Positions 7,253-32,475 of a DNA stretch of 32,475 bases are shown here, piece by piece (position 1 is the stretch's first letter; every line of letters starts with the position of its first letter). The stretch is from an uncultured Mycoplasmatota bacterium (GTDB lineage Bacteria; Bacillota_I; Bacilli_A; RF39; UBA660). The notes under the pieces are model-generated. The model was not told the origin of the DNA. It searched no databases and worked only from the letters and a program-made list of their open reading frames with translations. The stretch lies in the NCBI GenBank assembly GCA_948469065.1, contig CAOKKL010000004.1:1-32475 (forward strand), in the 5' to 3' direction. Made by a program: the position numbers and the translations under genes.

Positions 7253-7603
7253 TTAATCTTTTGGTTTAAATATTAAAGTCAATACAAACGAAAAGATAAT
7301 TGCACTTACAATAGCAGCAGACGATTTTGTTAAAAGTCCTGAAAAAAATCCTAAAATACCGAATTCTTGAAAACCTGCAATTCCCGCTTGATATAATAAA
7401 TGTCCAAAATTTGAAATGACAACAGTTGCACCTGCTCCAGCCCATTTAATTAATTTTTCATAAATTCCTAAAAAAGATAAAATAGCACCCAAAACAGTAA
7501 ATATACTAGTGACATGACCAGGTGTTAATTTTGTATTATCTAGTATCATTTGACCAAACATACAAATCAATCCAGACAACAAAAATGCATTGAAAAAAAT
7601 CAT
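7253..7603 (-). CDS. spoVAE: Stage V sporulation protein AE
   Basis: This 116-residue membrane protein of the SpoVA channel takes part in dipicolinic acid uptake into the forespore and its release at germination. It is almost wholly hydrophobic with about four helices. The family features ICMFGQMILDNTKLTPGHVT and the glycine-rich AGAGATVVISNFGHLLY are clear. It corresponds to the short SpoVAEb form. Its start overlaps the spoVAD stop by 4 bases, so the two are probably translationally coupled. It ends the operon, ahead of a strong terminator. Confidence 0.93.
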   Translation of the reverse strand: MIFFNAFLLSGLICMFGQMILDNTKLTPGHVTSIFTVLGAILSFLGIYEKLIKWAGAGATVVISNFGHLLYQAGIAGFQEFGILGFFSGLLTKSSAAIVSAIIFSFVLTLIFKPKD

Positions 7604-8577
7604 TTTAAAACCTCCAAACTAATCGCGTGAGCAATGGCTGGTATGGTAATTTTTTGATTGACTAAAGTAGGACTATGTAAAGAACCTGTTCCAATTACCA
7701 AAATTTTACGAAACCGATTATTTTTTAATACTTTATTAAATAACACGAGAGGAAGTGCAATAGGTCCACTTGCACCTGCATAAACTTCTTGCGTTTCCAA
7801 ATAAATTTCGGTAGCAGCATCCATATGATTTTTAATAGCAATACCATGACTACGCTTTAAATATTCACGGAAAATATCGGTTCCAACACTCCCTAAATCT
7901 CCCGTTACAATAACATCATAATAATCCACGGTTCGATTAAAATCCGATAAATGTTGGATTAAAGTTTCGGCTGCGGCTGGAGCCATAACAGCTCCCATAT
8001 GTGTTGCATCTTTCATACCCTTATCAATAACGGTACCAACTGTAGCCCCTTCAATTTTTACTTTTGATTGGTCTTTTGAAATAATAGTCCCTACACTTCC
8101 TGTGGCTGTAAAAGTAGTTGTTTTTGGTTTTGGTGCTCCATATTCCACTGGAAAACGAAATTGTTTTTCTGCAGTTAAATTATGACTTGAAGCAAGAACT
8201 ATGGCTCTCCTAGCCGTTTTTCCATCTAAAAGTCTAGCTCCTAAAATTAAAGATTCTACAAAAGTAGCACAAGCACTATATACCCCAAAATAAGGAATTC
8301 GATAAGATTTAGCAGCATAATTACTGACTCCAATTTGATTGGATAAATCTCCAGAAAGTAAGTAATCAATGTCACTATCCAAATATTTATTACGAAGAAG
8401 TAAATTATCTATAACCACTCGTTGCATTTTAATCTCTGCTTGCTCAAAAGTTGGTTCATTATAATAATAATCATCCATAACTAAATTATAGTCTTTAATT
8501 TTACCTTCTTTTTCTAGGGGACCTGCAACTGTAAAAGAATCGTTTAAAAATACATTACTAAATTTAATACTATCCAT
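7600..8577 (-). CDS. spoVAD: Stage V sporulation protein AD
   Basis: SpoVAD is the soluble, thiolase-like subunit that binds dipicolinic acid on the SpoVA channel in the forespore inner membrane. The 325-residue length is normal. Visible are PYFGVYSACATFVESLILGA, corresponding to the ketoacyl-synthase-type cysteine region, AAAETLIQHL, TGDLGSVGTDIF and the C-terminal VIGTGSLHSPTL. It overlaps spoVAC by 8 bases and spoVAE by 4 bases, which makes a tightly coupled three-gene operon. Confidence 0.96.
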   Translation of the reverse strand: MDSIKFSNVFLNDSFTVAGPLEKEGKIKDYNLVMDDYYYNEPTFEQAEIKMQRVVIDNLLLRNKYLDSDIDYLLSGDLSNQIGVSNYAAKSYRIPYFGVYSACATFVESLILGARLLDGKTARRAIVLASSHNLTAEKQFRFPVEYGAPKPKTTTFTATGSVGTIISKDQSKVKIEGATVGTVIDKGMKDATHMGAVMAPAAAETLIQHLSDFNRTVDYYDVIVTGDLGSVGTDIFREYLKRSHGIAIKNHMDAATEIYLETQEVYAGASGPIALPLVLFNKVLKNNRFRKILVIGTGSLHSPTLVNQKITIPAIAHAISLEVLK

Positions 8578-9007
8578 AAATCATCACCCCTAATATTGAT
8601 AAAAAAAATGCGGCAATAATTCCATAAAGCAAAACACTACCAGCTAATTTAAAAAAGTTTGCTCCAAGACCAGTTATCATACCTTCTTTTTTATAATCCA
8701 AAGCAGCAGATGTTATCGAATGAGCAAAACCTGTGGTAGGAACAATTAACCCTGCTTTTGCTTTGGTAACCAAATTATCAAAAAATCCAAGTGCAGTACA
8801 AACGCTTCCAAATAAAATAATAAAAATACATAACCAAGTATAAGCTTCGACATTTTCCATTTCAAATGAAGTCATTAAAATAGTAACAATGACTTGGCCA
8901 ATAAAACCTATTAAGCCTCCAATGCAAAATGCAACAATAGCATTTTTAAGTTTATTTTCTTTTGGTGTAATTTCATCTACTAACTTTTTATATTCATCTT
9001 GATTCAT
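8570..9007 (-). CDS. spoVAC: Stage V sporulation protein AC
   Basis: This 145-residue membrane protein of the SpoVA complex acts in the forespore inner membrane; in Bacillus SpoVAC behaves as a mechanosensitive channel. The N-terminal segment YKKLVDEITPKENKLKNAI and the loop GLIVPTTGFAHSITSA are family hallmarks. There are four to five hydrophobic helices. It is the first gene of the spoVA set here; spoVAA and spoVAB are not in the window. GGAGG lies upstream of the ATG. Confidence 0.95.
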   Translation of the reverse strand: MNQDEYKKLVDEITPKENKLKNAIVAFCIGGLIGFIGQVIVTILMTSFEMENVEAYTWLCIFIILFGSVCTALGFFDNLVTKAKAGLIVPTTGFAHSITSAALDYKKEGMITGLGANFFKLAGSVLLYGIIAAFFLSILGVMIYG

Positions 9008-9052: not shown

Positions 9053-9079
9053 AAAAAAATGACACCCTAAGGTATCACT
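9052..9079 (-). terminator. Terminator at the end of sigF
   Basis: The stem GTGATACC pairs with GGGTGTCAT (one bulge) around TTA at 9059-9079 on minus, followed by seven T. It overlaps the sigF stop and separates sigF from the spoVA genes. Confidence 0.65.
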
Positions 9080-9723
9080 TGATAATATTGTTTTATTTTT
9101 TCAATTCCTTTTTTTTCATATCTAGAAACCATAACTTGAGTCATATTTAACTTTTCGGCAGTTTCAGTTTGTGTCATATCTTCAAAATAACGACAATTAA
9201 TAATTTTTTGTTCATTTTCATTTAAGGTTTTAATTCCTTCTTGTAATGTCAATGTATCATCCAATGAAACCTTTATAGGACTAGCAATCGTTTCATAATA
9301 ACTTCTTTCTTCTTCCGGATTTTCATCTAAACTCATCATAATCGAACTACCTGATAAAATAATTTGTTCTACCAATTGTAAATCCATTTCTAAAAATTCT
9401 GCAATTTCTTGATTATTTGGTATTTTATTTAATTTTTGTGCCAAAGCACTACGAGTCATCTCAATTCTTTGATAACTTCTCAAAATATCTTTACTAACTT
9501 TGATATTTCTATTTTTAAAAGCAACTTGATACATTTCTCCAAAAACATATTCATAAGCATAAGTAGAAAACTTTGTCATTCCATTTTTTTGATAATTTTG
9601 ATATGCTTTTACTATTCCAAGTGCACCTGCTTGATACAAATCCTCTTTATCTACATTATAAAATTTTTTAGCTACTGATTCGATCAACCATTCATTTTCC
9701 CTGATTATTTCTATATCTGTCAT
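9067..9723 (-). CDS. sigF: Forespore RNA polymerase sigma factor, SigF type
   Basis: This 218-residue sigma-70 family protein has region 2 (NEWLIESVAKKF, YQAGALGIVKAYQNYQ, TKFSTYAYEYVFGEM), region 3 (NIKVSKDILRSYQRIE...NQEIAEFLEM) and region 4 (TLNENEQKIINCRYFEDMTQTETAEKLNMTQVMVSRYEKKGIEKI). The KVSKD segment matches the VSRS segment of SigF and SigG. The position after spoIIAA and before spoVA favours SigF; SigG cannot be fully excluded. The key oddity is that no spoIIAB is present between spoIIAA and this gene, which are 8 bases apart. How this sigma factor is kept silent before septation is therefore unclear. A terminator-like hairpin overlaps its stop. Confidence 0.85.
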   Translation of the reverse strand: MTDIEIIRENEWLIESVAKKFYNVDKEDLYQAGALGIVKAYQNYQKNGMTKFSTYAYEYVFGEMYQVAFKNRNIKVSKDILRSYQRIEMTRSALAQKLNKIPNNQEIAEFLEMDLQLVEQIILSGSSIMMSLDENPEEERSYYETIASPIKVSLDDTLTLQEGIKTLNENEQKIINCRYFEDMTQTETAEKLNMTQVMVSRYEKKGIEKIKQYYQVIP

Positions 9724-9731
9724 AGTATCAC

Positions 9732-10064
9732 CTAAACTTGCAACGACTCAAAAACCATCCTTTCGCTTATCATTTGTTTTACTCTTAATCGTTTTACTTG
9801 ATTTTTTATGTGTTCTGGAACTTCGCACAAATAGACTGTTCCTTGATTTTTTTTAATCTCATATTTTGTTCTTAAAATTGCATCAATTCCTGATTCATCT
9901 ACCTTTGATACAGAAAGTAAATTATAAACCAGATATTTGATTTGATGTTTTTGGATTACTGGAGCGAGATAATTGTTAATTCTGGATGTATTTTTTTTTG
10001 TTAAACATCCATCAAGTCTTACAAACAATACTCCCCTACAATATTCCAAATCCATGTATAACAT
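9732..10064 (-). CDS. spoIIAA: SpoIIAA-like STAS protein with Glu at the phosphosite
   Basis: This 110-residue STAS-domain protein aligns without gaps to Bacillus SpoIIAA over the core (HQIKYLVYNL then SKVDESGIDAIL). In SpoIIAA the sequence is MDSSG, and the first Ser (Ser58) is phosphorylated by SpoIIAB to control release of SigF. Here this position is Glu57 (codon GAA), while Asp56 and Ser58 (equivalent to Bacillus Ser59) are kept. A Glu at this place could mimic the phosphorylated state or simply reflect loss of the kinase. The gene stands 8 bases before sigF with AAGGAG upstream of its ATG. It follows the LCP gene after a terminator, so it should have its own promoter, which I could not identify with confidence. 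Confidence 0.85.
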   Translation of the reverse strand: MLYMDLEYCRGVLFVRLDGCLTKKNTSRINNYLAPVIQKHQIKYLVYNLLSVSKVDESGIDAILRTKYEIKKNQGTVYLCEVPEHIKNQVKRLRVKQMISERMVFESLQV

Positions 10065-10167
10065 GAAAATTCTCCTTATCTATATATAGAATATAGAACA
10101 TGTTAGCAAAAGAAGATACAACTTCGACAAAACTAGAAGAAAAAAGCAAAGATTTTTAGAAATAACG

Positions 10168-11831: not shown

Positions 11832-12416
11832 ATGTCAGATATAAATAATCATGAAAATAAAAAAATAATGGAAGAATTAATCGTAAAATTAATTCATAAT
11901 GAACCACTAAAAACTATAGAATTAGCTTTATTAACATCTTATAGCTTGGAAGAAATGGCACAAGTTGCTATGCAAATTGAAAAACAGGAACTGCTAGCAA
12001 ATTTACCTGCCATTGCTATATTAAGTCAATTAAGTATCCCATTTGGGGGAATCAATGAAAACTTATCAAATTCTAGTAATATGTCTAATTTTCAAAAAAA
12101 TCTATTCATAATTGAACAAATAAGTTTGATTAAAAAATTAATTCACAATGAACCATTAACAAATGAAGAATTAGTTATATTAGCAAATTATAGTTTTGAA
12201 GAAATGGCACAAATTGCTATGCAAACTGAAAAACAGGAACTGCCAGCAAATTTACCTGCCATTGCTATATTAAGCCAATTAAGTATTCCATTTGGAGGAA
12301 TCAATGAAAAACTATAACATCCGAGTGAAATATCAAATTTTCAAGCAAATGTGTTGGCTATTCAACAATATCAAGCTATGAATCAACAAAAAAATCAAAA
12401 AGGAAATTCACGATAA
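11832..12416 (+). CDS. Tandem-repeat protein with an in-frame stop
   Basis: The open frame ends with TAA at 12315-12317 (161 residues). It has two 83-residue repeats, each with KLIHNEPL, EEMAQ(V/I)AMQ and LPAIAILSQLSIPFGGINE, and the DNA of the repeats is very similar. After the TAA the same frame continues for 32 codons to a second TAA at 12414-12416. That continuation still matches the repeat linker: SNFQ after the stop aligns with SNFQ after the first repeat. The protein was therefore probably longer and was cut by a point change. The repeats may be helical bundles. No function was recognised and no signal peptide is present. A 10-bp terminator hairpin begins just inside the extended frame, which supports the longer frame as the original gene. 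Confidence 0.65.
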
Positions 12417-31006: not shown

Positions 31007-32068
31007 ATGTCACAACTTATCAGTATTATCGTACCTTGTCACAATGTAGAAAAATATATTGATACATGCTTAAATAGTATTGTAAATCAAACTTTTTCTA
31101 ATATAGAAATTATTTGTATTGAAGATCATTCTGTCGATCAAACATTAGAAAAATTAAATAATTGGAAAAGCAAAGACCAACGAATTAAAGTTTATAGATT
31201 AAATCAATTATATGGTGCTGCTAATGCCAGAAATTTTGGATTAAAAATTGCCAAAGGAGATTATATCACTTTTATTGATAGTGATGATTTTGTTGCTATC
31301 AATTTTTTAGAAGATTTTTATCGTACTTCCGAAAAAACAAAAATACCAATCATAAGTGATATCCATCACCACATGAGAGCAAATCAATATAACAATATGG
31401 AACTTTTTTTGAGTGCAAAAGATAGTATTTATATCGCCAACTTTAAGCAAGATCCCAGTAATATTTTAAAATTTGCACCATTTATTACTGGAAAATTATA
31501 CAAAAGAGAAGCCATTCAAACAAAATTTCTTCCAAACCATATTTGGGAAGATTTACCCTTTTTCGTGGAAACATCTTTACATAATTCTACGACTATTTAT
31601 GTCAACTTTATCGATTCTAATAATTATTATTACTATTATCGTCAAAATAAATATTGGGTTTCACAAAGTTTATCCACACCAAGCGCTAAAAATTTAGATA
31701 TTATTGCTGCATTACAACATTTGTTAATCAAAACACAAAATTATTGTAAACAAAATGAAAGATGTAAAAAAGTAATAGATACTTTTATTGCCAATTTTTT
31801 ATTTGAAAGCTTAAAAATAATTTTTTATAGTTACGAATTATCTAGAGAAGAACAAGAATTCTATACGATATTATTGCGACGTATTTATCAATTTTATTTT
31901 CCAGATTTTATCAATCAAATTTCTAAAATTTCAAATTATGACAACTTTAAAATTTATGATTTTCTTTGCTCATCAATTTGTCCAAAAGTAAATGATATTA
32001 AAAAAGAAGAAAAAGATTTTATAAAGGCAGCCAAAAAAAGAAAAAAGAAGATCGAATCTTCTTATTAA
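31007..32068 (+). CDS. Family 2 glycosyltransferase
   Basis: This 353-residue GT2 (GT-A fold) enzyme transfers a sugar from a nucleotide sugar to a cell-surface acceptor. It has SIIVPCHNVEKYIDTCLNSI at the start, the nucleotide-binding strand IEIICIEDHSVDQTLE, YGAANARNFGLKIAKGDYITFI and the metal-binding SDD. The later HIWEDLPFFVETSL helps define the acceptor site. The last 30 residues are highly basic. The substrate is unknown. It is transcribed alone, with its own promoter, and converges with the catalase gene (4-base overlap of ends). Confidence 0.88.
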   Translation: MSQLISIIVPCHNVEKYIDTCLNSIVNQTFSNIEIICIEDHSVDQTLEKLNNWKSKDQRIKVYRLNQLYGAANARNFGLKIAKGDYITFIDSDDFVAINFLEDFYRTSEKTKIPIISDIHHHMRANQYNNMELFLSAKDSIYIANFKQDPSNILKFAPFITGKLYKREAIQTKFLPNHIWEDLPFFVETSLHNSTTIYVNFIDSNNYYYYYRQNKYWVSQSLSTPSAKNLDIIAALQHLLIKTQNYCKQNERCKKVIDTFIANFLFESLKIIFYSYELSREEQEFYTILLRRIYQFYFPDFINQISKISNYDNFKIYDFLCSSICPKVNDIKKEEKDFIKAAKKRKKKIESSY

Positions 32069-32475
32069 TAACCTTGTTTTTTATAATAGTTATATAATTC
32101 TTTAAATCGATTAAAATGTACCACTTCTCTTTGTCGTAACCATAAAAGTGGTCCTAGTAAATCTTCATCATCGGTTAAATCAATTAAATTTTCATAAATA
32201 GCTCTTGCTTTTTGTTCTGCAGCCATATCTTCGGATAAATCTGCTAAAACATCTCCTGTTACCGCAAAATAAGATACAGTAAATGGATTTCCAGAAGAAT
32301 CACTTGGATATACACCTTTGCCATGTTCAGTAAACATACTTCCAAGACCGCAAGCTTCTAATTCTTCTACTGTGGCATCTTTTGTAAGTTGATGAATCAT
32401 AGTGGCAATCATTTCACAATGTCCTAATTCATTTTTACGATTATGTTATCAGTCAAAGGGCAATAAAATAATATC
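32065..32475 (-). pseudogene. cotJC: CotJC-type manganese catalase, 5' part missing or shifted
   Basis: The frame 32065-32412 matches the C-terminal part of spore-coat manganese catalase CotJC: MIATMIHQLTKDATVEELEA, then a metal-site region and the WLRQREVVHFNRFKELYNYY end, with the last Glu-His metal ligand pair. Upstream, the frame reads NRKNELGHCEM (with the ExxH ligand pair) but is stopped by TAA about 33 bases before the ATG. Another frame reads CPLTDN, which resembles the expected upstream part. One or a few extra bases in the A-run at about 32435 would join them. This can be a real frameshift, or an error near the sequence end. The gene runs off the window. Confidence 0.65.

Follow-up and report, generated by a model that had tools for sequence, protein, structure and literature searches.

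The SpoIIAA-SpoIIAB-SpoIIE partner switch is the textbook route by which activation of a sigma factor is limited to a single compartment. Compared to the Bacillus system of spoIIAA-spoIIAB-sigF and SpoIIE, the locus described here and its relatives share the SpoIIAA fold, SigF, the gene order together with the spoVA genes, an upstream Spo0A box and SpoIIR, but SpoIIAB and SpoIIE are missing, and both the phosphosite and the docking face of SpoIIAA are eroded. SypA of Vibrio fischeri is similar in being a single-domain STAS protein thought to target a partner other than an anti-sigma factor; SypA keeps Ser56 and the kinase/phosphatase SypE, whereas the protein studied here has neither (PMC10120452). 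In the order RF39, a KEGG-orthologue survey found the same loss, with spoIIAB and spoIIE reduced or absent, and predicted altered spore regulation; its main text does not cover SpoIIAA, its retention, its phosphosite or selection (Microb Genom 2024; PMC10868615). The loss of spoIIAB and spoIIE in RF39 is already published, and the fate of SpoIIAA appears to be unreported so far.

We analyzed a window (the whole stretch of DNA, 32,475 nucleotides) from a genome of 1.06 Mb in 61 contigs that is 69% complete. The order on the minus strand is spoIIAA, sigF, and then spoVAC-AD-AE, with these features:

9732 to 10064, minus strand: spoIIAA-like gene for an orphan STAS protein (without kinase) of 110 aa, from Pfam STAS, spore_II_AA as best NCBIfam model, and the AF2 fold
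9894 to 9896, minus strand: codon of Glu57, aligned with Ser58 of B. subtilis SpoIIAA (MAFFT, with D57 and G60 as anchors)
9724 to 9731, minus strand: 8-bp gap between the spoIIAA stop and the sigF start, where spoIIAB cannot fit
9067 to 9723, minus strand: sigF, 218 aa, from SigF/SigG family models, synteny, and a 91% identical copy in CAOJNP010000019.1
9057 to 9080, minus strand: terminator-like stem overlapping the sigF end, from a pattern scan only
8570 to 9007, minus strand: spoVAC (Pfam SpoVAC_SpoVAEB, 1e-29; TIGR02838, 9e-42)
7600 to 8577, minus strand: spoVAD (Pfam SpoVAD, 1e-103)
7253 to 7603, minus strand: spoVAE (TIGR02839, 3e-35)

Since only 8 bases separate spoIIAA and sigF, no spoIIAB lies between them, and the orthology of the locus is supported by the spoVAC-AD-AE order downstream. 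Coordinates, strand and gap were as given in the original prediction, and MAFFT alignment confirmed its placement of Glu57 where Ser58 should be (STAS motif DESG, compared to DSSG in B. subtilis). An LCP-family gene and a gene for a DacF-like carboxypeptidase are found upstream of spoIIAA; dacF likewise precedes spoIIAA in B. subtilis.

The window SpoIIAA matched Pfam STAS (2e-13) and, as its top NCBIfam model, spore_II_AA (1.9e-13), although its score was under the equivalog cut-off of TIGR02886 (50.3 bits vs 114.75). Its AF2 model (pLDDT 95) was closest in the PDB to the SpoIIAA chains of 1thn, 1th8, 1til and 1tid (TM about 0.9), all of which come from SpoIIAA-SpoIIAB complexes. The protein has a STAS domain of the SpoIIAA fold by both Pfam and the AF2/PDB comparison, and its gene lies in operon with sigF, while Glu57 takes the place of the phosphorylatable Ser at position 58. 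The window SigF belongs to the SigB/F/G family and has spore_sigF as top-scoring equivalog (7e-37), under the cut-off of TIGR02885 (127.4 bits vs 321.45); its assignment is supported by synteny with spoIIAA and the spoVA genes and by the presence in the family of a SigG-like gene distinct from it.

Named relatives matched via the window SigF were uncultured gut MAGs, including Candidatus Coprosoma, which has been placed in order RF39 (PMC8035907). We call this group of small-genome Bacilli RF39-type because of that membership. The family sample comprised 145 RF39-type genomes, the window's genome counted in, and SpoIIAA was compared between 141 distinct orphans and 59 distinct SpoIIAB-linked homologues from Bacilli and Clostridia. 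The genomes compared were draft MAGs except for a few, the SigF tree was a quick build, and no RF39-type family member with observed spores was found.

A search with PF13581 found stand-alone SpoIIAB in 0 of the 145 family genomes, and with TIGR01925, scores above the cut-off came from 8/60 relatives and 40/198 members of the class, none of them in the window's family. The original prediction left room for a SpoIIAB hidden elsewhere in the genome, and this candidate was rejected on reading the short GHKL frames: the sole short PF13581 match above the cut-off belongs to a split histidine kinase, of which it is the 3' part, and the short frames left over from the TIGR01925 search, including one in the window's own genome, are histidine-kinase pieces. 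All SpoIIAB-like matches inspected in that genome were histidine kinases, whole or in fragments, and its incompleteness is covered by the same absence in the 144 other family genomes. SpoIIE gave no full-length match in any of the 145 genomes, compared to strong matches in the SpoIIAB-bearing relatives. Neither component of partner switching of the SpoIIA/Rsb type, the GHKL anti-sigma kinase (SpoIIAB/RsbW) or the PP2C phosphatase (SpoIIE), was thus detected in the family.

Despite these losses, sporulation is otherwise largely retained: SpoIIR was present in 126/145 family genomes, the window's own among them, and YlbJ (TIGR02871), a second sporulation marker, in 120/145. G064, G066, G071, G085, G087 and others were without SigF-level matches, SpoIIR or YlbJ, an apparent full loss of sporulation inside the same family. 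These gut Bacilli have most other spore genes, including SpoIIAA, SigF and the SigF-dependent signal SpoIIR, and have neither kinase, phosphatase nor phosphosite, which makes the family a natural test of the role that SpoIIAA has outside the switch and of the means by which SigF can be confined to the forespore without one. One study lists spoIIAB as universal among predicted spore-formers and gives RF39 0%; predictors that require spoIIAB may miscall the RF39-type group (PMC12536801).

Ser occupied the phosphosite column in 59/59 SpoIIAB-linked SpoIIAAs compared to 13/141 orphans, so its loss is not due to chance. The orphans carry a wide range of residues at this site (E24, N15, L14, S13, M12, K10, I10, D8, Q8, T6, A5 and others), and the entropy rises from 0 in the SpoIIAB-linked set to 3.7 bits, the top gain among 106 columns. 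The agreement between kinase loss and Ser loss that had been proposed for this single locus therefore extends family-wide: the change at Ser tracks the loss of spoIIAB, and no relative was found that combines SpoIIAB with Glu. A divergent SpoIIAA subclade (L273, L275, L296 and relatives) has a conserved IFLSCGKVV stretch, often Thr in the phosphosite column, and has lost the Gly of DxxG.

The release from constraint reaches beyond the phosphosite. While G20, N49, D57 and G76 are conserved in orphan SpoIIAAs, strong release was also seen at R67, F55, E21, G62, S59, G66, G95, S94, R89, D23 and M93. Kinase contacts in SpoIIAA, or their equivalents in RsbV and SypA, are E21, D23, F55, S58, S59, R89 and M93, and R67 contacts both kinase and phosphatase (PMC7340262, PMC10120452, PMC11418112). 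Eight of the 9 published kinase or phosphatase contact columns ranked 1 to 14 of 106 by entropy gain, and the entropy gain of contacts exceeded that of the remaining columns (Mann-Whitney p = 7e-5, using only columns conserved in SpoIIAB-bearing species). In SigF, the second most released column is the acidic residue at B. subtilis position 149; with numbering across species being approximate, this probably coincides with, or adjoins, the residue whose clash with SpoIIAA Glu21 on SpoIIAB has been reported (PMC7340262). With kinase and phosphatase lost and phosphosite and docking face eroded, early spore development must be controlled otherwise.

Two features upstream of spoIIAA bear on its timing:

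10123 to 10130, minus strand: canonical Spo0A box (TTGTCGAA), ahead of spoIIAA by about 60 bp; TGNCGAA in 120/140 family loci
10090 to 10095, minus strand: -10-like TATATT at a conserved spacing from the box (+34 to +39 relative to it across 121 aligned loci)

The 120/140 loci with TGNCGAA upstream of spoIIAA compare to 2.9 expected by shuffling, and in the controls the motif was found in 3/102 loci upstream of spoVAC and 0/99 upstream of spoVAD. It was also seen upstream of sigF in 17/28 loci without a called upstream STAS frame. From sequence, the box and TATATT upstream of spoIIAA-sigF look like a Spo0A-activated sigma-A promoter, and this control is probably ancestral, since 29/59 SpoIIAB-bearing relatives also have the box. 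A second, weaker box occurs about 25 bp further upstream across the family (L056-L175).

Together, these comparisons suggest, with somewhat better than even confidence, that the partner switch was taken apart in the family's ancestry and that SpoIIAA was kept as a phosphorylation-independent STAS protein co-translated with SigF. The kinase and anti-sigma factor SpoIIAB and the phosphatase SpoIIE would have been lost in that ancestry, and SpoIIAA would then have lost Ser58 and the face docking SpoIIAB and SpoIIE, yet been retained. Spo0A~P at the operon promoter would time SigF production, in line with the conserved box, and SpoIIAA may work by stoichiometric binding to another partner, the first candidate being SigF or its holoenzyme because the spoIIAA and sigF genes are coupled. 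The suggestions first made for this locus, that SpoIIAA may act on its own and that SigF may be under a different control, fit all of the observations.

A possible but less probable alternative is that the present partner of SpoIIAA is a different protein from SigF, such as a forespore septum or membrane protein, with adjacency to sigF giving timing only, which the Spo0A box would supply early in sporulation. The location of new constraint is consistent with this idea. Six positions that vary where SpoIIAB is present are near-invariant in orphans (E8, G12, I13, F15, R17 and E106, in B. subtilis numbering), and they map to the beta1-beta2 hairpin and to the final helix, off the old kinase face, the phosphosite being at the start of helix 2. 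Some of these positions may be structural rather than a new interface, with R17 and E106 simply touching each other; a covarying pair in SpoIIAA resembles an R16-E101 contact. The arrangement of the genes argues against a partner unrelated to SigF: spoIIAA and sigF overlap or lie within 12 bp in 128/141 family loci (48 of them overlapping) while the genes upstream of spoIIAA differ between loci. At L116 (G007:C28), a metK-like gene (S-adenosylmethionine synthetase) sits between spoIIAA and sigF.

From the same gene coupling, direct binding to SigF is the simplest guess for what SpoIIAA does now. In one version, which we regard as unlikely, orphan SpoIIAA would engage SigF via a new surface and regulate it independently of phosphorylation. 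If true, a former anti-anti-sigma factor would be a direct sigma regulator, and compartment-specific activation would proceed without a partner switch. Neither of two analyses pointed to SigF. MI-APC covariation over 98 loci gave 13 top pairs per 10,000 for SpoIIAA with SigF, compared to 7 and 3 for the SpoIIAA controls (SpoVAC and SpoVAD being the control genes) and 14 for SpoVAC with SpoVAD, and an AF2 model of a fusion of SpoIIAA and SigF that arises naturally by in-frame read-through, made from a shallow alignment, had a pTM of 0.39 and no confident placement.

Returning to SpoIIAA retained as a working STAS protein, selection speaks to whether it could instead be a decaying relic, a translated leader that only couples sigF translation. 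About 25/176 family loci (e.g., L156, L157, L158, L159 and L162) have no STAS gene near sigF, so SpoIIAA is dispensable for SigF there; SpoIIAB is also missing at these loci, and the losses apparently fall in several lineages. SpoIIAA also evolves fast (mean pairwise distance 0.69 vs 0.60 for SigF). However, 21 close SpoIIAA pairs from across the family gave dN/dS values of 0.05-0.29, and against L239, the closest named copy (92% identity), the ratio was 0.064 for SpoIIAA and 0.088 for SigF. These ratios, which point to strong purifying selection, together with the near-invariant G12, F15, R17 and E106, the confidently predicted intact fold and the mostly adjoining sigF, indicate that SpoIIAA is no relic, and we consider decay improbable.

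Even less probable is that the kinase role is still filled from another place in the genome, either by a SpoIIAB that has diverged or by a histidine kinase. Family genomes have several GHKL proteins, and the best two PF13581 matches in the family are frames of about 620 aa (L176, G127; L177, G150), the one in G127 reading as an RsbU-like protein with PP2C and full HATPase domains and the match in G150 looking similar. Against a surviving kinase, the inspected GHKL matches are sensor histidine kinases, SpoIIE is lost too, and the kinase-contact residues of SpoIIAA have eroded together.

The original prediction thus stood for the joint loss of kinase and Ser, to which SpoIIE is now added, and fell for the idea of a phospho-like lock: Glu57 as a phosphomimetic holding SpoIIAA in the phosphorylated state can practically be set aside, since Glu is one among many residues at the site, for although E or D is found in 6/7 species-level copies of the window's genus (five E, one D and one N), only 32/141 orphans are acidic family-wide, most others being N, L, M, K, I, S or Q, the kinase-contact neighbors are eroded too, and a phospho state would be meaningful solely towards SpoIIAB or SpoIIE, both missing.

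Elsewhere in the window, a 161-aa ORF at 11832-12317 is made up of two halves, each of about 65 residues, that are nearly identical, and an ORF at 32065-32412 resembles the spore-coat Mn-catalase CotJC, as judged by eye only.
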